Source of the DNA: Phytohabitans houttuyneae
Lineage (GTDB): Bacteria; Actinomycetota; Actinomycetes; Mycobacteriales; Micromonosporaceae
Assembly (NCBI RefSeq): GCF_011764425.1
Contig: NZ_BLPF01000001.1
Span: forward strand, 3,897,001-3,961,000
Length of the DNA: 64,000 nt
Direction of reading: 5' to 3'
The position numbers were made by a program, and so were the translations under genes. The notes beneath the pieces were generated by a model that made no database searches, had not been told where the DNA came from, and saw only the letters and a program-made list of their open reading frames with translations. This document shows, piece by piece, positions 4,490 to 41,688 of this stretch (position 1 is the first letter of the stretch; every line of letters starts with the position of its first letter).

Positions 4490-5115
4490 CACCGGGCCGC
4501 CTCCGGACGGCGGTCGTCGAGGCGGGACACGCCCACGAACCGCTGCTCGGCGTACTCGGCCGCGGCGAGGAACGCCAAGCCGATCCGGCGGGCGTCCTCG
4601 ATCCGCAGCGCCTCCCAGTTCCCTGCCCCGTCGAACCGGTAAGCGAGGCTCGGGCTGTCGCAGTCGTGGTCGACGTACACGGCGCCGGCGCTGTCCGGGG
4701 TGTCGATCGCGAAGACGCGCCAGCCTCTCGCCGGTGTCCACTCCGGGCCGGGATGCGTGTGGCGGCCGCGCACGTGGTCGGGGCGGGGCAGGGTCGCCGT
4801 GTCGATCTGCGATAGCAGCGCGGCGACCTGCCGGCGCAGCAGGTCGAGGGCGACGGGTGCGGCGTCGAGGTCCACGGCGGGCGCCTCCAGGTCGAAGAGG
4901 GTTAGGTCGTCTGCCGCCGACCGGGCGGCGGGCAGCCGCGCCGGGCTGGCCGGGCGCAGGCCGACACGCTCGGCGCACTCCGGCCCGACCTCGAGCGACA
5001 CCCACGGCTCCCGGACCAGCACCAGGCCGCAGAGGCGCCCGGATTCGCGGAGGGCGCGGCAGCGGCTCGTGCGGCGCGGCGCCGGCGCGACGGCGGGCAG
5101 CGGCAGCATGGACAT
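4489..5115 (-). CDS. hypothetical phage protein (208 aa)
   Basis: ATG at 5115, 3 nt after the HD gene's stop. The N-terminus has several Cys (CRALRESGRLCG, then a CAER motif), an Ala/Pro-rich linker follows, and the C-terminal half is a compact alpha/beta-like domain (WRVFAIDTPDSAGAVYVDHD, then YRFDGAGNWEALR). A zinc-ribbon plus a small sensor-like domain is a guess only; no family recognised. Confidence 0.65.
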   Translation of the reverse strand: MSMLPLPAVAPAPRRTSRCRALRESGRLCGLVLVREPWVSLEVGPECAERVGLRPASPARLPAARSAADDLTLFDLEAPAVDLDAAPVALDLLRRQVAALLSQIDTATLPRPDHVRGRHTHPGPEWTPARGWRVFAIDTPDSAGAVYVDHDCDSPSLAYRFDGAGNWEALRIEDARRIGLAFLAAAEYAEQRFVGVSRLDDRRPEAAR

Positions 5116-5118
5116 CGG

Positions 5119-5670
5119 TCAGGTCACCGCCGGCGCAAGAACCGCCGCTGGGAGCAGTTCGTGGAGCCGGTCGAGGTAGCGATTCTCCGCCTCGTCCGGC
5201 GTCCAGCAGCGGATCTCCACGCCCAGCGGTTGCAGGTGCTCGACGGCCCACGGCTGCGGAGGTGGCGCCATCAGGGCGGCACGCTCGTCGAGGAGAATCC
5301 GCGTATCGGCGAGTTTCACCTCGTCCGGGCAGACACGGAAAAGGCCGAACCGGTCGACTATTACCGCTGCAAGCCTGTCCTCCACCTGCCGGTACTCAGG
5401 CATCGCGGACTTCAGCGGCCGGATCATGTCACCCAAGTACGCCTCTGTGGCGTCGTGTAGGAGCGCCCACAGCGCGTTCCCCGGCGCCACTGCGTGGCTC
5501 AACAGCACGCAGTGCTCGGCCACCGAGTAGGCCAGCTTGACGTGGCCGCCATACCGGCACAGCAGCGACAGCGCATGCGCGATGTCCACCGGGTCGATGT
5601 CCTCAACATGCGGGTCGAGCGGGTAGAACGCCCGACCTGTGTAGGTTTGCATCCAGTCACCGTGGCTCAC
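5119..5670 (-). CDS. HD-domain phosphohydrolase, YfbR-like
   Basis: The metal-binding HD pattern is clear: H53 in YSVAEHC, H72-D73 in LLHDATEAYLGD, and a later Asp at 122 in LADTRIL. Length (183 aa) and the AYLGD-PLK stretch match phage YfbR-type 5'-deoxynucleotidases, which remove phosphate from dNMPs with a divalent metal. ATG 5670 overlaps the upstream stop. Together with the DUF550 protein two genes downstream it could degrade deoxypurine triphosphates stepwise. Exact substrate cannot be told from sequence. Confidence 0.85.
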   Translation of the reverse strand: MSHGDWMQTYTGRAFYPLDPHVEDIDPVDIAHALSLLCRYGGHVKLAYSVAEHCVLLSHAVAPGNALWALLHDATEAYLGDMIRPLKSAMPEYRQVEDRLAAVIVDRFGLFRVCPDEVKLADTRILLDERAALMAPPPQPWAVEHLQPLGVEIRCWTPDEAENRYLDRLHELLPAAVLAPAVT

Positions 5671-6104
5671 GAGGCCACCTCACCCTTCGCGGCGTTCTCC
5701 AGCTGTTCAAGCCGGTAGGTCGCGCGCCACCTCGCGTTCGAGTCGGCCGTGGCGAGCACGTAGCCGGTGAGGTCGTCGAGCTGGCCGCGGACGTGCCGCA
5801 GCGACATGCACGGGTCATGCCACACCGCACGCTCGGACGACTGGTAGCTGTGCCGTGCCTCCTTCCAGCGGAACCGCTGGCCGCAGCCTTCGCAGCGGTC
5901 CACGATCCACCGCTTGACGTTGAGGTACCGCCACCACCGGAAGTGCAGGTGCCGGACGTGGCGCAGCGCCCAGGCCAGACGGCGAAGGATGCGCTGCGGC
6001 GGGTGGCCGCACACCACGGTGGCGTCGTGGCCGCCCGGCTCGTCGTGCCAGATGTCCAGCTTGAGCACGGGCACGGCAAACAGCAGGACGGACGGATCAT
6101 GCAT
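5667..6104 (-). CDS. zinc-binding hypothetical protein (145 aa)
   Basis: ATG 6104 lies inside the end of the FtsK-gamma-like gene (8-nt overlap), and its stop overlaps the HD gene. Features are a CGHPPQR segment, a central basic Trp/Arg/His-rich stretch (residues 47-63) and a CEGCGQRF zinc-ribbon motif followed by WHDPC. Basic plus zinc-binding suggests nucleic-acid contact, but no family is recognised. Confidence 0.65.
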   Translation of the reverse strand: MHDPSVLLFAVPVLKLDIWHDEPGGHDATVVCGHPPQRILRRLAWALRHVRHLHFRWWRYLNVKRWIVDRCEGCGQRFRWKEARHSYQSSERAVWHDPCMSLRHVRGQLDDLTGYVLATADSNARWRATYRLEQLENAAKGEVAS

Positions 6105-29719: not shown

Positions 29720-30284
29720 GCGAACCACCCCGCGGCGCGCGGCCCGATCCGACACAGCGGTCGAAGCCCACACTGTGCAGCCGCACCAGACCGTCCACGG
29801 TGAGCGCGTAGGACCGCTGGCAGCCCACACACTTCCCGCGACCCGGCGACGGACGTCGAGGCTTGATCCCGGTGTGCTTACGGCACACCTGCAGCCACCG
29901 GCCCGACTCGGGGTCACGCCGCTCTGCGACCGCCTCGACGTCGCAGCCGCCCCAGTCACACGTGCCGGTCGGCCAGCCAGCCACCCGCAGATCGGCGCGC
30001 TTCGGCACCCACAGCGCCCAGCGGCCGCATCCATCGCACTGCCTCTGGACGGCGACGATCATCGCGTTGTCGGCCCAGCCCGACGCCGCGACATAGCCGG
30101 CCGGCTGCGGGACATGGTTCGCGACGTTCGGGCACGTGGTGTCGCTGTCGAACTCCAGCACCGGCCGGCCAGCAGGCACGGTGGTCGGGGTGTGGAAGCC
30201 GTTGACCTTCGCGACACCGCCGAGGTCCGGGTCGACGGTCGCCGGGGCCGCTGCGCCGGCGGCCTTGCCGCGCCCGCGCCTCAC
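29712..30284 (-). CDS. multi-zinc hypothetical protein (190 aa)
   Basis: GTG 30284 overlaps the phosphatase stop (GTGA). At least four Cys pairs are visible: CDGCGRWALWVP, CDWGGC, VCRKH and GKCVGCQRSYAL; this indicates two zinc sites. A basic N-terminus (RRGRGKAAG) suggests nucleic-acid binding. Family unknown. Confidence 0.6.
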   Translation of the reverse strand: MRRGRGKAAGAAAPATVDPDLGGVAKVNGFHTPTTVPAGRPVLEFDSDTTCPNVANHVPQPAGYVAASGWADNAMIVAVQRQCDGCGRWALWVPKRADLRVAGWPTGTCDWGGCDVEAVAERRDPESGRWLQVCRKHTGIKPRRPSPGRGKCVGCQRSYALTVDGLVRLHSVGFDRCVGSGRAPRGGSHG

Positions 30285-30736
30285 CGCGCACCCCGCAGGT
30301 AGGCGAGAAAGTGCTCGTTGAACAACGCCCACCGCGACCGCCGCGCACGCACCAAGTCGATGGCCGCCTCGACGTCATGACCCAGGCGCACGAGCGTGAG
30401 GGCGGTGACCGGCCCTGACCGGTTGTAGCCAGCCTGGCAGCGGACGAGGACACGGGCGCCGGTCATCACGGTGGCGGCGGCGAGATCGGCAAGCTGCCCG
30501 GCGGCGACGGCGTCCGAATCCAGCAGGACACCGTCGGGGATGCGCAGGTGCCGGTGTTCGACGCTGTCGGCGGGCCCGCATCCGTCGCGGTGGTAGAGGG
30601 AGATGACGAGGTCGAACTCGTCGGCGACGACCGCGGTCCGAACGCGGCCGTCGGCGTCACGCCAGTCATGGCCGCCCTGCCACAGGCCCGGGACGATTTC
30701 GTTCCATGGCGCGTCGGCGTACGGAGGCCCGATCAC
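30281..30736 (-). CDS. dual-specificity/tyrosine-phosphatase-like protein
   Basis: 151 aa with the PTP loop VRCQAGYNRSG: nucleophile C100 and R106 in the C-x5-R arrangement. IPDGVLLD at about 66-73 can supply the general-acid Asp, and WNEIVPGLWQGG opens the fold as in dual-specificity phosphatases. ATG 30736 overlaps the upstream membrane gene. The substrate could be phosphoprotein, a nucleotide or a lipid; it lies between regulators and the membrane/GT2 block. Confidence 0.85.
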   Translation of the reverse strand: MIGPPYADAPWNEIVPGLWQGGHDWRDADGRVRTAVVADEFDLVISLYHRDGCGPADSVEHRHLRIPDGVLLDSDAVAAGQLADLAAATVMTGARVLVRCQAGYNRSGPVTALTLVRLGHDVEAAIDLVRARRSRWALFNEHFLAYLRGAR

Positions 30737-32005: not shown

Positions 32006-32151
32006 CGCGCACCCCGCACCCGGCCGGCTGCCCAGCGCGCGCCGCGGTACACACCCACCGCCGCCGCGACAGGCGGCGCCATCAGGGCCACGACGACGGC
32101 GATGCCGATGCCCGCCAGGACAGTGCCTGCGCCGCGCGGATCCCGCCTCAC
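32002..32151 (-). CDS. 49-residue membrane microprotein
   Basis: GTG 32151 shares GTGA with the glycosyltransferase stop and its own stop overlaps the following ATG, so it is sandwiched with no free base. One TM helix (VLAGIGIAVVVALMAPPVAA) with basic ends (RRDPRG, RVRGAR). Its conserved coupling to the GT2 gene argues for a partner role. Confidence 0.55.
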   Translation of the reverse strand: MRRDPRGAGTVLAGIGIAVVVALMAPPVAAAVGVYRGARWAAGRVRGAR

Positions 32152-33497
32152 CGTGCACCCGCCATGGCAACCTCGACGGTCTGGCGGGTGCCCCACCCGG
32201 TGCGCCAGCAAGTGGCCACCCCGTACCAGCGGATCGCCCGCAGCACCACCAAGGCCCAGACGACCGCGACCGGCGTCAACGCCCAAGTCGCCCACTGGTA
32301 GGCCAGCGACTGGTCGGAGCGGCGAACGGTCATGTACCGCAGGGTTTGTGCGTAGCCGATGATCAGGGGGACCGCGACCAGCCACGGCACCACCGACACA
32401 TCCGGGTCGGTGATCGGGGCGAACACGGCGACGGCGAAGAACACGACCGCGGCGACCACGGTTTGCGCCCAGCGCAGCAGGTGGGCCCAGTACGCGAACG
32501 ACGTCAGCGGCAGGTACCGCAGCCGCCACCACGAGCGGATGAAGCTGCCGCGCATCCACCGCAGGAACATGCGCGCGAAGTGCCCGGTCGTCTCCGGCAT
32601 GAGCGAGAACGCGTAGGCGGTCGGCTGCTGCACTGTGCGCCCGCGGAGCATCGCGAACAGGGTCAGCATCGAGTCGTCGGAGAACGGCACCCGCCGGCCG
32701 AAGAACGTCTCCGACAGGTACGCCTCCAGGCTGTCCCGCACCACGGCGGCCCGGTAGACGGCGATCGGCCCCGAGTTGACCCACACCGACCCGAACACCG
32801 ACAGGCTCGACCGGTCGGTGAGTTGCCCGGCGACGAACCACAGGTCCGTGAACCGGGTGAGGAAGCTTCGGCGGACGTTGGCGGCCATGACGATCCCGGC
32901 CACCGACTGCACCCGCTCATCGGCGAGCGGCTTCAGCAGCTCCTCGAGCGCGTGCGGGTCGGAGACGGTGTCGGAGTCGACCGTCCAGTACACGTCCGCG
33001 CCGGGCGTCGAATCGACGACCGCTCCTTGTGCGTGTCGCTTGCCGGCGTTGTCCTGCCGGAACCACGCCGCTGTGATCCCGGCCAGCGGCGCAGCCTGCA
33101 GAAACCACGCCTTGACGGGCGTGTAGTCGACCGCGGTGGAGCCGTCGTCGACGACGTAGATGATGTTGGGTTTCCGGGTCTGCCCGACCATGGACACCAG
33201 GCAGGCCTTCAGCGCGGCCGGGTCCTCGTGGAAGGCGGGCACGATCGCAACCACGTTCAGCTGGTCGAGCTTCAGCCGGTCGTGGACACCGACCTTCGCC
33301 GGCCGTTCGAGGTAGGCGACGCCGAGCTGCCACACCAGCAGCCCGAACATGGCCGCGTACACGTAGGTGAACCGGTGCCCAGCACCGTTGACCGCGCCGA
33401 TGAGGGCGACGACGTGGTGGGCGGCCCACACCGCCGCAGCCGCCAGGACGACAGCTGCAGCGGCCAGGAGCCGCGTCGGGACGAGCCGGGCGGTCAC
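32148..33497 (-). CDS. processive family-2 glycosyltransferase, hyaluronan-synthase-like
   Basis: GTG 33497 overlaps the upstream stop. 449 aa: two N-terminal TM helices (about 10-35, 44-62), then a GT-A domain with VVDDGS at 115-120, DSD at 174-176, SGPIAVYR at 242-249, SDDSMLT at 273-279 and RWMRGSF at 313-319, and three to four C-terminal TM helices (from about 343). This order matches HasA/NodC-type synthases that make and export a polysaccharide; the QxxRW motif is reduced to FLRW. The donor sugar cannot be told. It is unusual inside a phage-type early region. Confidence 0.85.
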   Translation of the reverse strand: MTARLVPTRLLAAAAVVLAAAAVWAAHHVVALIGAVNGAGHRFTYVYAAMFGLLVWQLGVAYLERPAKVGVHDRLKLDQLNVVAIVPAFHEDPAALKACLVSMVGQTRKPNIIYVVDDGSTAVDYTPVKAWFLQAAPLAGITAAWFRQDNAGKRHAQGAVVDSTPGADVYWTVDSDTVSDPHALEELLKPLADERVQSVAGIVMAANVRRSFLTRFTDLWFVAGQLTDRSSLSVFGSVWVNSGPIAVYRAAVVRDSLEAYLSETFFGRRVPFSDDSMLTLFAMLRGRTVQQPTAYAFSLMPETTGHFARMFLRWMRGSFIRSWWRLRYLPLTSFAYWAHLLRWAQTVVAAVVFFAVAVFAPITDPDVSVVPWLVAVPLIIGYAQTLRYMTVRRSDQSLAYQWATWALTPVAVVWALVVLRAIRWYGVATCWRTGWGTRQTVEVAMAGAR

Positions 33498-33685
33498 GAC
33501 ACACCCGCGGGACGGCGGCGGCGGAACCCGAGCCGGATCAGCAATGCGCCGGCGAGGACCAGCGCTACACCGACCGCGGCGACTGCGAGCGGCATCGGGA
33601 TGGACGCTTCGAGGCTGACACCGGCGACGGTGCCGCCGACAGCGAAAGCGCCGGAACCAGTGCGGGGCAGAGAGCCACCGGACAT
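33494..33685 (-). CDS. 63-residue TM protein with LPRTG motif
   Basis: ATG 33685 is coupled by TAATG to the gene upstream. The whole product resembles a cell-wall sorting signal: MSGGSLPRTGSGAF, a TM helix (PLAVAAVGVALVLAGALLIRL) and RRRR tail. The LPRTG lies at residue 6 with no export signal before it, so it is either a bare sorting-signal-like microprotein or a coincidence. Confidence 0.55.
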   Translation of the reverse strand: MSGGSLPRTGSGAFAVGGTVAGVSLEASIPMPLAVAAVGVALVLAGALLIRLGFRRRRPAGVS

Positions 33686-34044
33686 TAATTGATCTCCTGG
33701 GGATTGTTGGTGAGGGGCCCGACACCCGGGTGGGCGCGGGCGTTCATCACCGACCCGAATCCGCGGCGGGGCTTCAGATCGGCGATGCGGAACTTGTCGG
33801 GGTATGCGAGTCGCACCAGCTGCGTCCACACCGACGACGATGGGAAACACGACGTGCACAGCGATCCGGCCAGCAACGCCACGTGGCCAACTGCCGGGAA
33901 AGGGTGCACCAGCAGCCCTTCCGCCAGGCCGCACTCGGTGTGCACGGTGTCATCGCGGACCATGCGGTGGAGCTCGCAGCCCTCCTGCATGCACGTCACC
34001 GCGGCGTCGTCAGCGCCTGTCAGACCGTCAGGGATTCGGATCAT
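33685..34044 (-). CDS. Cys-containing hypothetical protein (119 aa)
   Basis: ATG 34044 coupled by TGATG. CMQEGCELHRM near residue 20, ECGLAEG and SLCTSCFPS make a plausible zinc site. Ends in a TAA stop, rare in this GC-rich window. No family recognised. Confidence 0.55.
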   Translation of the reverse strand: MIRIPDGLTGADDAAVTCMQEGCELHRMVRDDTVHTECGLAEGLLVHPFPAVGHVALLAGSLCTSCFPSSSVWTQLVRLAYPDKFRIADLKPRRGFGSVMNARAHPGVGPLTNNPQEIN

Positions 34045-34232
34045 CACGCACCGCCCAGCCAGATCCAGGCCACGACCCCCGCCACCGCGACCGCGAGCGG
34101 CGCAACCACAAGCAGCGCTACGACACGGCGCCGAACGGTGTCGCGCTGCTCCGCGTCGACCGTCCACGTCTCGGCGTGGGAGACCTGCTCGTCCCAGCAG
34201 GGCGCACGATCAGGGTCGAACCGGCGCGTCAC
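34044..34232 (-). CDS. single-TM protein (62 aa)
   Basis: GTG 34232, overlapping the DpdA-like gene by 23 nt. Charged N-terminal half, then TM VVALLVVAPLAVAVAGVVAW near the end: C-terminally anchored. Function unknown. Confidence 0.5.
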   Translation of the reverse strand: MTRRFDPDRAPCWDEQVSHAETWTVDAEQRDTVRRRVVALLVVAPLAVAVAGVVAWIWLGGA

Positions 34233-35118
34233 GCTGCCGCCCCCGTCCGTCGAAGAGCGACAGTTGCTCGTGGTGGCGCTGCCGGTCTGCGTCCAGCAGC
34301 TGGACGACCGTCTGACGCCACCGCAGCGCGTACCGGATGCAGTTGGCGCAGTTCCGGTGGTTCGCGCGGGGGTCGGCCTGGCATTCCGGCAGCGGATTCG
34401 CGCGCCGGGCTTCGTAACTCCATGCCATCGAGTCGGCGGTGTTCAGAAGGTGGCCGTACTTGTCGAGGCCGCGCAGCTTCACCCCGAAGCCGTGCACCGG
34501 CAGCTCGTCGTCAAGGGCGAGCAGCGCCCGCACGATTTCGCCGATCTCGTCCGCGGCCTGGCGGCGACACACCGATCCGAGACCGACCACGGCGAAGTTC
34601 CGCAGGTCGACGCCTGCAGCGGCGTACAGGTCCCAGCAGCGCAGGTAGTCGTCACGGTGGTAGCCCTGCAGGACGGGCATGAACGGGCTGTCCCAGTCGC
34701 AGCCCCACAGCTCGGTCAGCTCGATGAAGTTCGCGACGGTGCGCCGCTGGTGCTCCTCCACGGACAGGCCCGTGCCGGCGAAGCGGACGCCGTTGGCCAC
34801 GCCGCCGCTGATGATGATCGGTTCGCACATCCAGTCCTGCGGTGCGGCCCAGCCGAGGTTGCCGATCTCCTCGTCGTAGCGGCGGACCGCGGCGACGTAG
34901 TCCTTCGCGGTGGTGCGCCACTCGCCGTAGAGCTGGAGTTCAGAGAAGCCGCCGGAGTCGAGGGCCCAGTGCATCCGCGCCCGTGGGAGCCGGCCGCGTT
35001 CGGCGAGTCGCCGATGCGACACGAACAGGCAAGCGTCGCCCGGCACCTCTTCGCGGCCCAGCCAGCTTGGCTCGTGCGTCCCGAGATAGAACGTCGGGGG
35101 AGTACCGAGGGCGATCAT
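34210..35118 (-). CDS. DpdA/TGT-like deazapurine DNA transglycosylase
   Basis: ATG 35118 overlaps the methyltransferase stop. 302 aa with the sequence hallmarks of tRNA-guanine-transglycosylase relatives of the DpdA type: HWALDSGGFSEL (catalytic-barrel Asp, residue 54), AAPQDWMCEP at 92-100, MPVLQGY at 147-153, FAVVGLGSVCRR at 175-186 and HGFGVKLRGL at 209-218, then CANC near 257. DpdA proteins exchange guanine for a 7-deazapurine in DNA. No queuosine-precursor genes are present, so the base would have to come from the host. The pairing with a C5-methyltransferase suggests DNA protection. Confidence 0.75.
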   Translation of the reverse strand: MIALGTPPTFYLGTHEPSWLGREEVPGDACLFVSHRRLAERGRLPRARMHWALDSGGFSELQLYGEWRTTAKDYVAAVRRYDEEIGNLGWAAPQDWMCEPIIISGGVANGVRFAGTGLSVEEHQRRTVANFIELTELWGCDWDSPFMPVLQGYHRDDYLRCWDLYAAAGVDLRNFAVVGLGSVCRRQAADEIGEIVRALLALDDELPVHGFGVKLRGLDKYGHLLNTADSMAWSYEARRANPLPECQADPRANHRNCANCIRYALRWRQTVVQLLDADRQRHHEQLSLFDGRGRQRDAPVRP

Positions 35119-37148
35119 CGTGGCTTGCTCCCGTCGAGCACGGGGCGCAGTCGCGATGCGATCCACGCTCCGACCGCAGGCGATACCGCGTTGCCGTACC
35201 CGTCCACCTGATCGCGGGCGGAGCCCCACACGATGAAGCTGCCCTGGTAGCCGGGGAAGTCCACGTCGAAGCCGCACCCGCGGCCGACCTCGTGGGGCCC
35301 GAGCATGCGGAAATAGCAGTCCTCAAGGGCGAGGTCGGCGAGCGCGGCGCGCCATTCGGCGGTCAGCAGTGCGGTGGTGTCGCGGGCGGTGAGTGTGCCG
35401 AGCGGGTCGGACAGTGGATGAGCAGCGGTCTCGTCTGCGCCGCTGCCGTTCTGCTTGTACCAGCCGGAGAACAGCAATCCCTGGCTGGCGGCCGACGCAA
35501 CGATCGTGCCGAGCGGGTTGCTGACCGGGTGGGCGCGATAGCCCGCCTCGTCGATCGAGCCGTTGTTCTTGATGACTCCGGCAGCGGTGAGCAGGCCAGG
35601 GATCTGGTCGGAGGTCACCGTTGGCATTGGCTCCGCATGCACGGTCGGCACGGTGTTCTGGCGGAACGGGAGGACACCGGCAGACAGGAGGCTGAGGGTC
35701 TCCGAGCCGCCCTGGGTCGGCAGCGGCTCGCCAACACCGCGTGGCGCGCCCTGGAAGTTGTTGACCGCGAGCAGCACCGCCTTTTCGTGAGTGGACGTGA
35801 CTGTGTCCATCGGGCGAGTGATGTGCTGGCCGTCGCCGTTGTGCCGGTGGGCGGCGAGCACCTGACCGGTGAGTGCGACCGGTGGCGTGAGTAGCCCTGT
35901 CGTATTGGTCGCGGGCTGTGCCCACAGCGGCCGGCTCAGGTCGCGGCTCCGGCACTCGGATCCGGGGTGCTCGAAGGTGTTGCCGGCGGCGACCATGACC
36001 GCGCCGGTCGAGAGCAGCGCGGTCTCCTGCTGGCTGGTCTGGGTGGGACCCGGCTGCCACGGGTGCCGCTCCGTGCCGCGCACAGCCTTGGCAGGCATCA
36101 GCACCGCAGGGAACTCTGGGAACCGCCGCCGACAGCGGTCGGCCCGCGCCATCGTGGCCGCCGCCATCGGCCCGGTTGAGCCGTCCCTGTGTTTCTTGAT
36201 CGGCTTATCGCCGATCCGGGTACCGAGATTGGTCAGGTCCAGCGCGTTGATCGACGGCGCCATCGGCGGGATGACCTCGGCACGGCAGCGCGGGCAGCGG
36301 TAGTTGTACTGCTCGCCGTACCGCACCCGGCCCGTCGGAGGGATGCCGGTCTTCCAGGTCCACACGGCGGGCACGACTTCGTGGCAGGGGTCGCACCACG
36401 CCGGCGGCCGGTGTTCCAGATCCGGCTCGGGCAGGCTTTCGTCCCAGAAGACGATGTAGATCCGGTCGCGGGACTGGGAGACGCCGAAGAACTGGCTGTT
36501 GAGATAGAGCACTCGAGCCCGGTACTTCATGTTGCGCAGCTTCGTGCGCCACCACTTGTAGGTGCTGCCGTCGCCGACCTTCCTCTTCCCAGGGACGGCC
36601 GGTCCCCACGACGTGAACTCGGTCGTGCACTCGATGAGGATCATGCGCGGGTGGTGCTTCTCGGCGTATTGCAGGATGCAGATCGCGGTGGCCCGGTCCC
36701 GCTCCGAGCGGGTTACGCGCTCCTCGTATTCCTCATCGCCGGCGATGTCGAACAGCGTCAGGCCCTGTTCGTATGCCTTCTGGGTGTTGGCCTGGCTGTG
36801 GTTCGTGCAGCTGATTCCGGCGACAAGGATGTCCGCGGACGGTAGGTCAGCGGCCGAGTGGTAGTCCGACGATTCTGGGTCGACGAGGTCGGCGATCCAG
36901 TGTTCGGCGTAGGGGTGGTTGGCCTCGTGGACCCGGGTTTTGTAGTCGTTGTGGTTGGCGGCCATGATCGTGGTGAATCCGGCCTGTCGGATGGCGTCGG
37001 TGAGGCCACCGAAGCCGGAGAACAGGTCGACCGCGATGAGGTCGTCGTGGCGGAACCGACGCTGCCGGGTAGCCGGCCGGTGCGTGGCTACGCGGGTTGC
37101 GGCTCGCTTCGGCGCGCTTCGGCGGCCGGCCGTGCTGGCGCGGCTCAT
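35115..37148 (-). CDS. DNA cytosine-5 methyltransferase with repeat-bearing recognition region
   Basis: ATG 37148 overlaps the upstream stop. Motif I IAVDLFSGFGGL near 38-49; catalytic loop AGISCTNHSQA with Cys114 (PCQ replaced by SCT); motif VI ECTTEF near 173; GNAVSPAVG at the end (IX/X). 677 aa is long: the extra lies between catalytic and closing motifs and carries five loosely repeated segments centred on RPMDTVTS, EPLPTQGG, EPMPTVTS, NPLGTIVA and DPLGTLTA, each about 30-60 residues apart, plus two CPRC/CDPC pairs. The closing helices contact AdoMet. It methylates C5 of cytosine in an unknown target. Confidence 0.88.
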   Translation of the reverse strand: MSRASTAGRRSAPKRAATRVATHRPATRQRRFRHDDLIAVDLFSGFGGLTDAIRQAGFTTIMAANHNDYKTRVHEANHPYAEHWIADLVDPESSDYHSAADLPSADILVAGISCTNHSQANTQKAYEQGLTLFDIAGDEEYEERVTRSERDRATAICILQYAEKHHPRMILIECTTEFTSWGPAVPGKRKVGDGSTYKWWRTKLRNMKYRARVLYLNSQFFGVSQSRDRIYIVFWDESLPEPDLEHRPPAWCDPCHEVVPAVWTWKTGIPPTGRVRYGEQYNYRCPRCRAEVIPPMAPSINALDLTNLGTRIGDKPIKKHRDGSTGPMAAATMARADRCRRRFPEFPAVLMPAKAVRGTERHPWQPGPTQTSQQETALLSTGAVMVAAGNTFEHPGSECRSRDLSRPLWAQPATNTTGLLTPPVALTGQVLAAHRHNGDGQHITRPMDTVTSTHEKAVLLAVNNFQGAPRGVGEPLPTQGGSETLSLLSAGVLPFRQNTVPTVHAEPMPTVTSDQIPGLLTAAGVIKNNGSIDEAGYRAHPVSNPLGTIVASAASQGLLFSGWYKQNGSGADETAAHPLSDPLGTLTARDTTALLTAEWRAALADLALEDCYFRMLGPHEVGRGCGFDVDFPGYQGSFIVWGSARDQVDGYGNAVSPAVGAWIASRLRPVLDGSKPR

Positions 37149-37591
37149 TGGGACCCCACCGGACCCCACGCCGAGACGGGCTCGGCGGGCTCGAACACCT
37201 CGACCAGCACGCCGTCGACCTCGGCCCACATCGAGGCCCTCGGCACCACCGCCACGTGCGGGGCCGCGCAGGCGGCGTCGCAGTAACGCAGCCCGTCCTT
37301 CTGCACCCCGCCCGGACCGACCTGCGTACCGCACTTCCCGCAGCGGGACAGGTCGTAGCGGGTACCGTTCCGCTTCGCATACGCCCGCCGGCGAGCGATG
37401 GCGTGCGGCTCCCACAGGCTGTCCTCAGCCCGAGTCAGCAGGCAGATCGAGCACCGCTCCTGCCACCAGCACGACCCGTCGGGCGGCACCAGCACGGTCA
37501 CCGGGTCGGCCAGGTCGAGGCCGGCAGCGAGGCTTGCCACGGTGGCCGGATCGGTCCACTGTGGCGACGTCATGGTCGGCAGGTCGGTCAC
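37145..37591 (-). CDS. zinc-binding hypothetical protein (148 aa)
   Basis: GTG 37591 (GTGA). Cys set: WWQERCSICLLT, CGKCGTQVG, then YCDAACAAPH, enough for two zinc sites. A WAEVDGVLVEVFEP strand pair ends the protein. It is upstream of and coupled to the methyltransferase, but no functional link can be shown. Confidence 0.6.
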   Translation of the reverse strand: MTDLPTMTSPQWTDPATVASLAAGLDLADPVTVLVPPDGSCWWQERCSICLLTRAEDSLWEPHAIARRRAYAKRNGTRYDLSRCGKCGTQVGPGGVQKDGLRYCDAACAAPHVAVVPRASMWAEVDGVLVEVFEPAEPVSAWGPVGSQ

Positions 37592-38001
37592 CGCGCACCC
37601 CCGGCCATCGCCAGCGCCGCCACCCGCGCCACGGCCGCCTGCGTTTCGGCGAGCGGCTCGACCACCGCGGCGGCCGGGCCAACAAACCGGGTGACGGTGA
37701 CGTGCATGGTCAGCAGCAGGCCGGACACGTCCTCGAACTGGCTGCCGCCGGCCTGCCATGGCCGAACCTCGACGGCCGTCATGCCGGCCAACAGCCGGTC
37801 GGAGATCGACCGCGCGGTCACCGGAGCCAGGTCGAGAGTCGAGACTTTGACCCGGTCGCAGTCGCGGCCTTGAACCACCGAGACCTGGGCGACGTCGACC
37901 GCCCGGGCGAGCGCCTTGACCGCGTGGACGACCGCGTCGGTGGTGGGCGTCACGCTGCTGGTGACCGAACAGCGGGTGTCCGTTAGGCTCTTTGGAGTCA
38001 T
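37588..38001 (-). CDS. hypothetical protein (137 aa)
   Basis: ATG 38001 (a GTG at 38004 is an alternative). Val/Ala-rich alpha/beta stretches (VVHAVKALARAVDVAQVSVV, LLLTMHVTVTRFVG), no Cys pairs. Unknown family. A hairpin lies in the 80-nt gap before it. Confidence 0.55.
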   Translation of the reverse strand: MTPKSLTDTRCSVTSSVTPTTDAVVHAVKALARAVDVAQVSVVQGRDCDRVKVSTLDLAPVTARSISDRLLAGMTAVEVRPWQAGGSQFEDVSGLLLTMHVTVTRFVGPAAAVVEPLAETQAAVARVAALAMAGGAR

Positions 38002-38043
38002 CACGCCGATGCCCTTTCGTGAGATCGGTTGTGGTGCGGTTCC

Positions 38044-38332: not shown

Positions 38333-38619
38333 GCCGCGCGCCTGCGGGTACGGGTGCGGGGGCGGCGCTGCGCCGCCTGGGTCGCGGCGACGACGGCTTC
38401 GATGTCGGTGAGCTGCCGCGGCTCGGGCCTGGCGGCCTCGGTGCGGTAGCGGCGAAGGGCCTCGACCTGCGCGGCGGTCATCCGCTTGTGGACCCGCTCG
38501 CGGCCGCCGCGGCGGGTGAACTCGACGCGGCCGTCTTCGCAGTCCTGCTCGATGGAGTGCCGGCTGTAGCCGGTCAGGACGGCGACCTCGGCGATCGTGT
38601 ACAGCTTCTCGCCGGTCAT
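38329..38619 (-). CDS. excisionase/MerR-type HTH protein (96 aa)
   Basis: ATG 38619 overlaps the XRE stop. TIAEVAVLTGYSRHSIEQDC followed by EDGRVEFTRRGGRERVHKRM is a winged HTH of the excisionase family, with a basic C-terminal tail. Position close to the integrase suits an element-excision or control factor. Confidence 0.8.
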   Translation of the reverse strand: MTGEKLYTIAEVAVLTGYSRHSIEQDCEDGRVEFTRRGGRERVHKRMTAAQVEALRRYRTEAARPEPRQLTDIEAVVAATQAAQRRPRTRTRRRAA

Positions 38620-38864
38620 GCCGCTGCCCGCTTCCGTTCCAGCAGGGTCACCGGGCAGTTGAGTGCGTCGGCGAGGCGCTTGAGCAGGTGTGGCGGGGCG
38701 TTGCGGGTACCGCCGACGATCTCGGACATGTGGCTGGGTGAGATGCCGACGGCCTCGGCGAGTGCCTTCTGGGTCCAGCCCTTGGCGTCCATGGCCCAGG
38801 CGACTGCCTCGGGGTTGTGGTCGAACGGCGTCTTGCGCTCCGTCCGGCTTCGCGTCATGGCCAT
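38616..38864 (-). CDS. XRE-family repressor (82 aa)
   Basis: ATG 38864 lies 6 nt past a -10 element, so it is probably leaderless. HTH: HNPEAVAWAMDAKGWTQKAL, then AEAVGISPSHMSEIVGGTRN. Being divergent from a second HTH gene with shared repeats between them, it resembles a lysogeny switch. Confidence 0.85.
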   Translation of the reverse strand: MAMTRSRTERKTPFDHNPEAVAWAMDAKGWTQKALAEAVGISPSHMSEIVGGTRNAPPHLLKRLADALNCPVTLLERKRAAA

Positions 38865-38899
38865 GCGAAGACAGTACGCACAAACATGCGAAGTCGCAA
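38862..38899 (-). promoter_or_regulatory. leaderless promoter of the leftward XRE repressor
   Basis: Reading leftward: TTGCGA at 38899-38894, 17-bp spacer, TACTGT at 38876-38871, ATG at 38864. The -10 is 6 nt from the start and the half-site CATGCGAAG overlaps the spacer. Confidence 0.6.
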
Positions 38900-39024
38900 G
38901 AGTTCGCACGAAGCAAGCGCGAAGTGGCGCGTACGCAGGGATGAGTGAACAGATCAACACCCTTGGTTGCGACGACGCGGCCACAACCCACGCGAAGCGG
39001 CACCTTTACTTCGCGCAAGTTCGC
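38862..39024. promoter_or_regulatory. cluster of GCGAAG half-sites between divergent regulators
   Basis: CATGCGAAG occurs at 38862-38870 and 38885-38893; GCGAAGT at 38919-38925; GTTCGC at 38902 and 39019; CGCGAAG at 38991; ACTTCGC at 39008-39014. Neighbouring copies in opposite orientation form dyads (for example the GCGAAG at 38888 with GTTCGC at 38902). Probably operators of the XRE proteins. Confidence 0.6.
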
Positions 39025-39034
39025 AGGCAGGGTT

Positions 39035-39517
39035 GTGCACGTGCCGCACCCGCGAGACCCGGAAGACGCAGGCCAGCTAACGGACGTCGGGAAGATCCTC
39101 GAAGACGCCCGTGAATCGCTCCGCCTGAGCAAACGCGAAGCCGCCCGACGCGCAGGCATCAGCGAGGGTCGCTGGCGTCAAGTCGTCACCGGTGTCCAGA
39201 AAGCCGGCAACGTCACCGTGCCGGTCAACCCGCGGGCAAGCACCGTCTCTGCGATGGCCCAAGCGGTCGGCGTCGATCCCGCCCTCGCGTTACGCGCCGC
39301 CGGCTTCTCGGACGAGGACATCCACCGCTTCGGATCGCCCACCCGCGAGCCGACCGCGTGGCAGCACAAGCTGGAAGAGGTCCAGGCCATCGCCGACAAC
39401 CAGGACCGCTCGCCCGCTCTGCGCGCCTGGGCAGCCCGGCAACTCGACGACATCGAGGCCATCCTGGCCGCCGCCCGTGCAGAAGAAGACGCTCAGCGGC
39501 GCGGCCAGGCCAGCTAG
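39035..39517 (+). CDS. XRE-like HTH regulator, rightward (160 aa)
   Basis: Start assigned to GTG 39035 (weak ribosome site); the open frame extends to 38945 but that part crosses the operator region. HTH: ILEDARESLRLSKREAARRA, then GISEGRWRQVVTG, followed by SAMAQAVGVDPALALRAAGF and an Asp/Glu-rich end. The stop shares CTAG with the convergent integrase stop (39514-39517). Candidate counterpart of the divergent repressor. Confidence 0.7.
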   Translation: MHVPHPRDPEDAGQLTDVGKILEDARESLRLSKREAARRAGISEGRWRQVVTGVQKAGNVTVPVNPRASTVSAMAQAVGVDPALALRAAGFSDEDIHRFGSPTREPTAWQHKLEEVQAIADNQDRSPALRAWAARQLDDIEAILAAARAEEDAQRRGQAS

Positions 39518-40917
39518 GCCGCCTCGTCGTCGACGGCGAGCGCCCGCTGGCGCGCCACCGACAGCCGGCGGCCGCCGCGCCGCTCCATCCGATCCAGCCG
39601 GTCGCGGTCGCCCTGGTTCTGCCACAGGTGGAAGTAGATGTTCACCGTGGTGCTGTAGCTGGCATGGCCAAGCCGGTGCTGCACCTCGATCGGCTGCCAG
39701 TTCGCCCGGATGCAGTCCGACGCGTGCGTGTGCCGGCCGTCGTGCAGCCGCGGCCGCCGACGCAGCACACCGGGGCAGGCGCAGTCCGACACCTCGTCCG
39801 GCCGCAGCTTGCGCGTGCACCCGCGCCGCGGCTTCGCCGGCGTGGGCGGCGGATGGTCGGGGCAGCGCATGGCCTCCGCGACCGCGGGCAGCCACTGCTG
39901 CCTGAACAGGTTCCGCTCCTGCCACACGCCGTCCACCGGGCTGCTCGCGTACGGGGTGGGGAACAGCAGGTCCCGGGGGCGTTTGCCCGCGCAGCGGCGC
40001 TCGAGCACCTTGACGACCTCGCTGGAGATGGTGACATCACGGCGGGACTTCTCGCTCTTGGGCGGCCCGATCTGCGGCTTGCCGTCCTTGCGCATCCCGC
40101 CGGCCTTCAGCGCGCGGCGGACGCGGATGACGGGGTTGGCGCCGGTCAGCGTCACGTCCTGCGGGCGGAGCACGAGGAGCTCGCCGAGCCGCAGACCCGT
40201 GCGGACGAGCACGAACCAGATGTCTGCGATCGCGGGCGAGCAGCGGGAGTGGATGAGGTCGACCTCCCACGGCTCCAGGTACATGCCCTCGAACGGCGTC
40301 ACCTTCGGCAGGCCGACCCGGGTCTTCCGCGAGCCGGCGGGCCGGGCGGCCGGATTGCGTTCCAGCCATGCGGGGACCGCAGCGGCGAGGACCTGGTGCA
40401 GGATCGTGTGCGCGCGGCGCACAGAGTTCGGCGAGATCACCTCGCCCTGCGGGTTCTTCTTGGACCGGCGGACCCGCTGCACCTTAAGCCATTTGAGCCA
40501 GTCCTTTATGGCGGGTTCGTCGATCTCCGACAGGTACAGGTGGCCAAGCTTCGGCAGTACCCGCACCTCGAGCGTCCGCACGTACTCGGTGAGCGTGTCG
40601 GGCTGGATGTCTTCGAGCTCGGCGCGGTCCTTGGCCCACTCGGCGGCGAACTTGCGAAGGGTGGGCTCGACGCGCGGCTGCTGGTGCAGGCCGAGGACTC
40701 GGGATGTCACCTCGTCGCCGGTGATGCGGTGGCCGTGGGCTTCGGCGAGGGCCTTCGCGGCGACGGCCAGCTCGTAGGCGGCCTTCGCGGCCGGGCTTTT
40801 GGTGGTGGCGCCTTCGGGGAGGACGAACTTGGCTTGCTCGAATGGTGCGCCGGCGGCGCCGCCGAGGCGCCAGCGGACGCGGTAGGCGTCGCCGCGCAGT
40901 TCGGGCTTGGATGCCAT
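39514..40917 (-). CDS. int: tyrosine recombinase integrase
   Basis: 467 aa. Arm/core-binding regions at about 80-180, then the catalytic domain: R243 in RTGLRLGEL, H392-x-x-R395 in LHDGRHTHAS, H418 in HRLGHASYST and nucleophile Y428 in VNIYFH. A Cys-rich insert (C352, C367, C379, C381; about 35 residues) sits between the catalytic Arg region and HxxR, possibly a zinc site. Acts on the adjacent tRNA-type site. ATG 40917 opens on MASKPELRGDAYRVRW. Confidence 0.95.
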   Translation of the reverse strand: MASKPELRGDAYRVRWRLGGAAGAPFEQAKFVLPEGATTKSPAAKAAYELAVAAKALAEAHGHRITGDEVTSRVLGLHQQPRVEPTLRKFAAEWAKDRAELEDIQPDTLTEYVRTLEVRVLPKLGHLYLSEIDEPAIKDWLKWLKVQRVRRSKKNPQGEVISPNSVRRAHTILHQVLAAAVPAWLERNPAARPAGSRKTRVGLPKVTPFEGMYLEPWEVDLIHSRCSPAIADIWFVLVRTGLRLGELLVLRPQDVTLTGANPVIRVRRALKAGGMRKDGKPQIGPPKSEKSRRDVTISSEVVKVLERRCAGKRPRDLLFPTPYASSPVDGVWQERNLFRQQWLPAVAEAMRCPDHPPPTPAKPRRGCTRKLRPDEVSDCACPGVLRRRPRLHDGRHTHASDCIRANWQPIEVQHRLGHASYSTTVNIYFHLWQNQGDRDRLDRMERRGGRRLSVARQRALAVDDEAA

Positions 40918-40939
40918 GCCGGGACGGTACCTCTGGTTG

Positions 40940-40957
40940 GTGTGCCCCGGGGCACAC
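40940..40957. promoter_or_regulatory. 18-bp perfect palindrome upstream of int
   Basis: GTGTGCCCCGGGGCACAC reads identically on both strands, 23 bp upstream of the integrase ATG. A repressor or directionality-factor site is likely. Confidence 0.5.
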
Positions 40958-40965
40958 TTGTACCG

Positions 40966-41001
40966 CCTTAGTGGTCCTTAGCTTCCCTTAGCTGTCCCTA
41001 T
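40966..41001. repeat. helically phased CCTTAG repeats next to the attachment site
   Basis: CCTTAG occurs at 40966, 40976 and 40986, exactly 10 bp apart, with a degenerate CCCTAT at 40996. The same hexamer occurs in the tRNA-type core at 41073. Candidate arm-type integrase or excisionase sites. Confidence 0.5.
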
Positions 41002-41064
41002 TGGACACCGTCTGACCTGCGCAAATGCAAGATCGTGCTGGTCAGGCGTTTCTCGCGACATCCC

Positions 41065-41106
41065 CTTTTAATCCTTAGGTTCGGGGTTCGAGTCCCCGGC
41101 GGCCCA
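41065..41106 (+). other. attachment site: 3' half of tRNA-Lys(UUU)-type gene
   Basis: The segment contains the anticodon-loop sequence CTTTTAATC, a T-arm (CGGGG-TTCGAGT-CCCCG, 41082-41098) and the acceptor strand GCGGCCC plus discriminator A. No matching 5' half (D-arm, GGGCCGC) lies upstream, so this is the duplicated fragment of a tRNA target and not a working tRNA. The complete gene should be at the element's other end. Confidence 0.8.
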
Positions 41107-41232
41107 CTACCCGCACTGATGTGCGAAAAGTGGGGTCAGCCGGTGTGCCGGTGTCCGCCAGCCAAGCGGCCGCGGCGGCGATCACGATCGGTAGGGTCGC
41201 CGAGCATCTTCGCCTGTCGGCGCGAGCCGGGC

Positions 41233-41688
41233 TCAGCTCGCCGCCTTCTTCACGAGCTCGCCGATCCGCTTCTCGTCGGCGGCGGTCAGCTTCGTCAGGG
41301 CGAAGGCGGTCGGCCACATGTTGCCGTCATCGAGCTTGGCCGGGTCGTTGAAGCCGAGCGTCGCGTACCGCGCCTTGAACTTGGCCGCCGGCTGGAAGAA
41401 GCACACCAGCTGGCCATCCTTGGCGTAGGCGGGCATCCCGTACCAAAGCTTGGGCGTGAGGTCGGGCGCGGCGGCCTGGACGATGGCGTGGATCCGTTCG
41501 GCAATCGCGCGGTCTTCCGGCGTCATCTCAGCGATCTTCGCGAGCAGCTCAGCCTCCGCGTCCTCCTTGGTGGGGCGCGATCCACGGCGGGTGGCGGTCT
41601 TCATCTCCTGGGCGCGCTCCTTCATGGCGGCGCGCTCTTCGTCGGTGAATGCCCCGGACCGCTTCGCGGGCTTCGGCGTGGCGCTCAT
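41233..41688 (-). CDS. DUF1801 (YdhG-type) protein
   Basis: ATG 41688 has GGAGG upstream; a longer start at 41703 is less likely. After a low-complexity basic N-terminus (KPAKRSGAFTDEERAAMKER) comes the DUF1801 core: TPKLWYGMPAYAKDGQLVCF, then KARYATLGFNDPAKLDDGNM and AFALTKLTAADEKRIGEL. First chromosomal gene right of the element. Family role is uncertain; iron-chaperone-like has been proposed for relatives. The 125 bp between the attachment site and this gene hold no credible gene. Confidence 0.8.
   Translation of the reverse strand: MSATPKPAKRSGAFTDEERAAMKERAQEMKTATRRGSRPTKEDAEAELLAKIAEMTPEDRAIAERIHAIVQAAAPDLTPKLWYGMPAYAKDGQLVCFFQPAAKFKARYATLGFNDPAKLDDGNMWPTAFALTKLTAADEKRIGELVKKAAS

Follow-up and report, generated by a model that had tools for sequence, protein, structure and literature searches.

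The stretch analysed here (the window) is 64,000 bp of the 11.3-Mb genome of Phytohabitans houttuyneae, positions 3,897,001 to 3,961,000 of contig NZ_BLPF01000001.1 (C1 below), and it carries prophage genes that include a candidate DNA 7-deazaguanine transglycosylase gene, dpdA, coupled to a gene for a relative of the C5-cytosine DNA methyltransferases (MTases; Table 1). Both genes are open frames with an ATG first codon and a TGA stop, and both are of coding-type composition, with a third-position GC content of 0.88 for dpdA and 0.87 for the MTase gene. The stop of the MTase gene and the start of dpdA overlap by the four bases ATGA at 35118-35115, as a preliminary description made from the sequence had stated, and an overlap of this kind also joins the MTase start to the end of the preceding gene at 37148-37145. 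We refer to the two products as P0001 (DpdA) and P0002 (MTase).

P0001 matches the Pfam family PF23859 ('DpdA') with an E-value of 4.5e-107 (357.8 bits, with a gathering score of 27) and phrog_1279 with an E-value of 2.8e-108, and the three DpdA-style motifs quoted in the preliminary description are all present. In an alignment of 62 rows the DSGGF and PQDWMCE segments occupy invariant or near-invariant columns, and D54 and D229 are invariant and align with the Asp motifs of DpdAs from phages with operons for synthesis of 7-cyano-7-deazaguanine (preQ0). Such an Asp pair has catalytic roles in DpdA enzymes and in tRNA-guanine transglycosylases (TGTs). The predicted P0001 model has the TGT barrel fold described previously, and its best solved match by Foldseek is the DpdA 7ui4, a DNA preQ0 insertase, with tRNA TGTs scoring almost as well; the 50 matches listed in the VIA-align comparison of the model do not include 7ui4. 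Neither P0001 nor its profile picked up a real relative among PDB sequences; relatives emerged from the fold comparison only.

Phage genes of this kind are annotated as 'queuine tRNA-ribosyltransferase', and one alternative is that P0001 is a TGT that modifies RNA, either of host or phage tRNA. We consider this unlikely, as P0001 has no match to PF01702 (tRNA-guanine transglycosylase) at E≤1 and can be rejected as a tRNA TGT by sequence, its best Foldseek match is a DNA preQ0 insertase, its profile matches the DpdAs of preQ0-operon phages over 147 columns, and its gene is coupled to that of a DNA MTase relative. A second assignment, to the Rosebush-type DpdAs at the sequence level, is also rejected: BLAST comparisons with the preQ0-operon DpdAs gave E-values of 0.053 (PenguinLover67), 0.13 (Ares) and 1.8 (Seurat gp33) with none listed for Sonali gp87, and none of these four proteins matches PF23859. 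There is likewise no match of P0001 to any PADLOC DpdA model. PF23859 appears to correspond to the 'singleton' phage DpdA group, which is linked to the preQ0-operon DpdAs by profile and fold comparison and not by BLAST. The DpdA label proposed earlier is sound as to family membership and profile and fold kinship, but it places P0001 in a subgroup without demonstrated activity in the excerpts of a 2019 survey used here (PMC6884629).

The neighbourhoods of dpdA relatives provide the strongest evidence in our analysis, and suggest that PF23859 proteins handle a 7-deazaguanine. We reduced 313 fetched loci (some repeated) to 157 lineages at 90% identity; these derive from scans seeded with P0001, A1, L184 and L195, taking the best 80 loci each, and the fractions given hold for that sample, in which many viral loci are short. 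In 40 of the 157 lineages a same-strand gene of the VUT family (YhhQ/VUT-like queuosine-precursor transporters) has its end no more than 60 bases from the dpdA match, and in 46 such a gene is present somewhere in the locus. All five VUT proteins tested from dpdA loci match PF02592, and the only NCBIfam models matched, in six of six tested, are for queuosine-precursor and preQ0/preQ1 transporters, below cut-off. Five other lineages, two of them 81% identical to each other, have queC, queD or queE beside dpdA. One example is L184, where queC, a small open reading frame (ORF), queE, queD and dpdA follow one another with ends that overlap or nearly touch; the order is dpdA, queC, queE in L195 and queC, queD, dpdA in L180. 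An abutting VUT gene and que genes are never found together (0/40, and on inspection of the list 0/46 for a VUT gene anywhere in the locus). A tree of 125 non-redundant DpdAs implies 11 changes of the VUT label and three of the que label, so the neighbourhood link has been gained or lost several times; the rows nearest to P0001 are L136 (VUT), L009 (no VUT found) and L135 (VUT). These arrangements suggest three sources of the base: uptake, own synthesis, or the host. We note that the small ORF separating queC from queE in L184 (4594-4989) is, by eye, nucleoside deoxyribosyltransferase-like, and has no NCBIfam match.

P0001 differs from the VUT-linked relatives in that neither the window nor the 60 kb on its left yielded a VUT gene. 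The same region contains no homologues of the host QueC, QueD, QueE, FolE and FolE2-like proteins (tblastn, E≤1e-6), in agreement with the earlier remark that no preQ0 synthesis genes are visible; the suggestion that they might lie left of position 1 is rejected, as none turned up in C1:3837001-3897000. The accompanying suggestion of a source elsewhere in the genome was productive, since two sets of preQ0 genes are present in the host, which makes dependence on host preQ0 plausible. The first is a row of folE, queC, queD and queE at C4:227758-230182, of which QueC exceeds the NCBIfam cut-off, with FolE, QueD and QueE having their best matches to these families below it. The second, at approximately C4:311597-314076, comprises queC (over cut-off), queE, queD and a gene judged folE2-like by eye. 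After it come PADLOC matches to DpdC, DpdB, DpdA, a second DpdB, DpdE, DpdF, DpdH and DpdD, which make this a predicted Dpd modification-restriction island. No tRNA TGT exceeds the Pfam cut-off in the host genome (95% complete), the one weak match being inside the island DpdA. Given the two sets, the island and this lack of a tRNA TGT, preQ0 is probably made in the host, with DNA and not tRNA queuosine as its probable destination. A source of base for a PF23859 DpdA is thus present through the host folE-queC-queD-queE genes and the dpd island, with none found in the window.

Relatives of P0001 are commoner in genomes with QueC and Dpd, an association that is suggestive only. Among 397 genomes of the order, of which 21 have a P0001 relative (E≤1e-20), QueC (E≤1e-15) occurs in 8/21 compared to 22/376 of the others (Fisher p 4e-5; 7/20 without P. 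houttuyneae itself) and a Dpd-type DpdA (E≤1e-50) in 4/21 compared to 7/376 (p 0.0015; 3/20 without it), these four counts being read by eye from tables. A second set was reached via the best P0001 relatives (50 of 80 genome loci taken, 49 genomes searched), and here QueC is found in 17/49 genomes compared to 15/394 of the class, and Dpd in 12/49 compared to 11/397 of the order; the two sets share at least two genomes (with the same QueC coordinates) and are not independent. Within one family (f15) the QueC comparison is 7/12 to 7/66 (p 0.0006), resting on an estimated 78 genomes and a by-eye count among the matches listed.

Taken together, we think it probable that dpdA is a temperate siphophage gene whose product would exchange guanine in DNA for a 7-deazaguanine, most likely host preQ0, and would shield phage DNA from restriction. 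The case for P0001 as a deazaguanine enzyme, built on the TGT fold, the two aligned invariant Asp residues and the VUT and que neighbourhoods of its relatives, is partly supported. In TGT chemistry an Asp attacks the sugar and the base is exchanged. By analogy, dpdA would be expressed from an operon beside the phage switch region, as its position suggests, host preQ0 would bind the TGT fold, and D229 would attack the sugar, with guanine leaving and preQ0 entering. With no synthesis or uptake gene found beside dpdA, the base would come from the host, one of whose two preQ0 sets is inside the Dpd island, and other family members may obtain it through their own YhhQ-type transporter or their own que genes. 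The modified phage DNA could then resist some restriction enzymes, as 7-deazaguanine-modified DNA of other phages does (PMC6884629), and P0002 may add a second, independent mark.

Several observations weigh against this reading. Most lineages sampled have neither type of neighbour, with no VUT gene in the locus for 111/157 and no queC, queD or queE for 152/157, and 32 of the 49 genomes with the dpdA family lack QueC at the threshold used. Large genomes (most are 8-12 Mb in the 49-genome set) and phylogeny confound the excess of QueC, the baselines are unmatched, and within a second family (f31), to which the ten genomes with the gene were assigned by genus name, the excess is not significant (3/10 compared to 37/260, p 0.17). 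By profile, P0001 matches the Dpd-type DpdA of the host only weakly (probability 9.6%), and the fold comparison does not distinguish DNA from tRNA targets, the VIA-align rows being filled by tRNA TGTs. Of the phage records with a P0001 relative, 391 of 400 are from Mycobacterium, and the dpdA regions of two of these phages that we read, LeMond and Thyatira, have neither que genes nor a VUT gene. Orion is presumably a B1 phage with a DpdA of the PF23859 family. In the survey excerpts, Orion is a 'DpdA only' phage that had no 7-deazaguanine, although its host makes no preQ0 (PMC6884629).

A more specific version of the preferred reading is that singleton DpdAs of actinobacterial mobile elements serve in self-mimicry, in which preQ0 from a host Dpd supply or from YhhQ-type import would yield a Dpd-like tag read as self; modified DNA may then pass as self to the host Dpd restriction module. 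We offer this tentatively and hold it to be possible rather than probable, the basis for Dpd evasion being the co-occurrence described above. If it were true, the phage transporter-transglycosylase pair would constitute a minimal two-gene DNA hypermodification unit for which no synthesis genes are needed.

Phages that have dpdA but no preQ0 genes are already known. The 'little described' of the preliminary description, said there of two base modifications in one cassette, is not supported as far as dpdA without preQ0 genes is concerned, which is common in actinobacterial phages (the 400 phage records) and was discussed in 2019 (PMC6884629). That survey, in the excerpts used, left open whether singleton DpdAs remain DNA-modifying enzymes, gives Mycobacterium as a genus without preQ0 genes, mentions measurements on two 'DpdA only' phages, one showing traces of 2'-deoxy-7-amido-7-deazaguanosine (dADG) and the second, whose host lacks preQ0, showing nothing, and reports YhhQ as uncorrelated with any particular phage group (PMC6884629). 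YhhQ is present in ~9% of bacterial dpd islands, according to an excerpt of a further study (PMC11888242). As far as the literature searched shows, PF23859 neighbourhoods of the dpdA-VUT and dpdA-que types are new, as is the coexistence of a singleton prophage and a Dpd island in one host. Here a prophage with a full-length singleton-type DpdA resides in a host that has both preQ0 genes and Dpd, which makes the question of singleton DpdA function directly testable.

P0001 is closest to the singleton mycobacteriophage DpdAs of PF23859 (LeMond gp44, Thyatira gp86 and those of B1 phages), which are of similar length and lack que genes in the regions read, with 59-61% identity to P0001 for LeMond and Thyatira. 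These two phages were, however, isolated on a host without preQ0 synthesis, whereas the P0001 host has preQ0 genes and Dpd, and in the two regions read their dpdA genes are not coupled to an MTase. The preQ0-operon phage DpdAs (Ares, genus Rosebushvirus; PenguinLover67; Sonali gp87; and Seurat gp33, named by similarity to Ares gp2) share the profile match and the two catalytic-type Asp motifs, but differ in having preQ0 synthesis genes nearby. The bacterial Dpd system uses preQ0, is present in this host, and includes the type of DpdA that the P0001 model resembles (7ui4), but P0001, at 302 aa, is shorter than the host ORF (449 aa when its first start is used), and searching the window revealed no homologue of DpdB or DpdC. 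Arthrobacter phage Sonali (L241) has two genes annotated as TGT/DpdA-like, at 2101-2718 and 5088-5978, the second within a ParB-dpdA-queC-queD-queE-folE run. A related gene directly precedes dpdA in the preQ0-operon phages (L239 1-792, L240 1-633 and L241 4498-5091), has a ParB-like annotation in two of the three, and has a homologue in L211; it is a possible counterpart of DpdB.

The cytosine MTase assignment of the preliminary description is upheld for P0002 by matches to PF00145 (E 5.2e-18) and phrog_116 (E 3.1e-45), and the catalytic Cys (C114) and the Glu (E173) are invariant in 32 rows. That description missed a variant motif IV, ISC-TNHS. Canonical C5-MTases have PCQ-x-FS in motif IV and ENV in motif VI. 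The profile aligns C114 with the motif IV Cys of M.HhaI, and the S-adenosylmethionine-motif, VIII and X regions also align with M.HhaI, but P0002 and its relatives have conserved SC-x-NHS/T and ECT (ECTTE in P0002) in place of the canonical PCQ and ENV motifs. Ser replaces Pro before the catalytic Cys in 31/32 rows and ECT is present in 31/32, so the variants are a family trait and not decay; the literature searched on variants of motif IV offered nothing of use. We obtained 46 relatives from IMG/VR, a few of them partial, of which 44 are 53-75% identical in the best segment; 0/46 loci fetched with the MTase have a VUT match. We take P0002 as the product of a C5-MTase-family gene separate from dpdA, probably with an anti-restriction role.

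The ATGA overlap invites the interpretation, made in the preliminary description, that the two genes are a conserved functional unit conferring 7-deazaguanine and 5-methylcytosine together, and there are two other loci in which a C5-MTase relative ends shortly before the dpdA match (140 bases in L138 and 338 in L026). These MTases are, however, only 27-28% identical to P0002, a C5-MTase was detected nearby in only 8/160 dpdA loci (two of which, L039 and L170, are apparently identical), and of the 41 virus records examined that have a close relative of the MTase (41 of 46, many of which may be fragments) only six contain a PF23859-type match. Moreover, no neighbour gene family is common to more than nine of 43 MTase loci plus the window, other than frames overlapping the MTase or its start. 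With these counts the conserved cassette is rejected and a functional unit appears quite improbable; the pairing looks local to this element, where phage mosaicism may have brought the MTase next to dpdA. Of the earlier proposal, the chemistry is thus supported in part and the conserved cassette is not.

Finally, it is very unlikely that dpdA is an inactive or decaying passenger: other copies in the genome look broken (two pieces at C1:4468855-4469663, two frames at C1:683271-684025, and an interrupted copy at C4:1272614-1280094), but this copy is full length, keeps the invariant columns of the 62 rows and has coding-type third-position GC.

The two genes are within a leftward run of overlapping ORFs that starts beside a helix-turn-helix (HTH) regulator and an integrase gene (Table 1). 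Left of the window, in the same direction, are terminase, portal, capsid/protease and tape-measure genes (L223, L224), and the element is therefore a siphophage-type prophage. Its ends were not placed, as a comparison of window positions 40901-41320 with the 60 kb left of the window revealed no repeat of ≥18 identical bases. Genes for a family 2 glycosyltransferase (32148-33725) and a dual-specificity phosphatase relative (30281-30736) are near the pair. An array of 35 tRNA genes on one strand, with no Asn or Tyr tRNA, is situated at C1:3839975-3843578, ~53-57 kb left of window position 1.

Table 1. Genes of the dpdA operon and the adjoining prophage region (window coordinates).
Position	Strand	Feature	Basis
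33685..34167	-	ORF 3' of dpdA, same direction, no family found	profile searches
34210..35118	-	dpdA, 302 aa, TGT-fold candidate DNA 7-deazaguanine transglycosylase	PF23859 match, predicted fold, invariant D54 and D229
35115..37148	-	C5-cytosine DNA methyltransferase relative, 677 aa, variant motifs IV and VI	PF00145, phrog_116; ATGA overlap with dpdA
37145..37591	-	small ORF overlapping the MTase gene by ATGA, no family above cut-off	putative start GTG 37591 within longer ORF 37145-37759
37588..38004	-	preceding ORF of the leftward operon, no family found	profile searches
38616..38984	-	HTH regulator adjoining the operon (putative immunity/switch region)	profile matches
38945..39517	+	second HTH-like ORF, divergent	best Pfam match just under cut-off
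39514..40917	-	tyrosine integrase of the prophage	profile match

The further dpdA copies of this genome are of two types. In one (L220 10260-17084; C4:1272260-1279084) the first two thirds of the gene, to P0001 residue 215, are fused in frame with a tyrosine recombinase in an 824-aa ORF, and the remainder, from P0001 residue 212, is 6.7 kb away beyond further large ORFs. The split looks like insertion of a transposon at the conserved HGFGVK motif. The two other PF23859-type copies (L221, C1:683271-684025; L222, C1:4468855-4469663) are each in two pieces or frames, and are located in elements resembling actinomycete integrative and conjugative elements (AICEs), with genes for single-stranded DNA-binding protein (SSB) and transfer-type functions recognized by eye.

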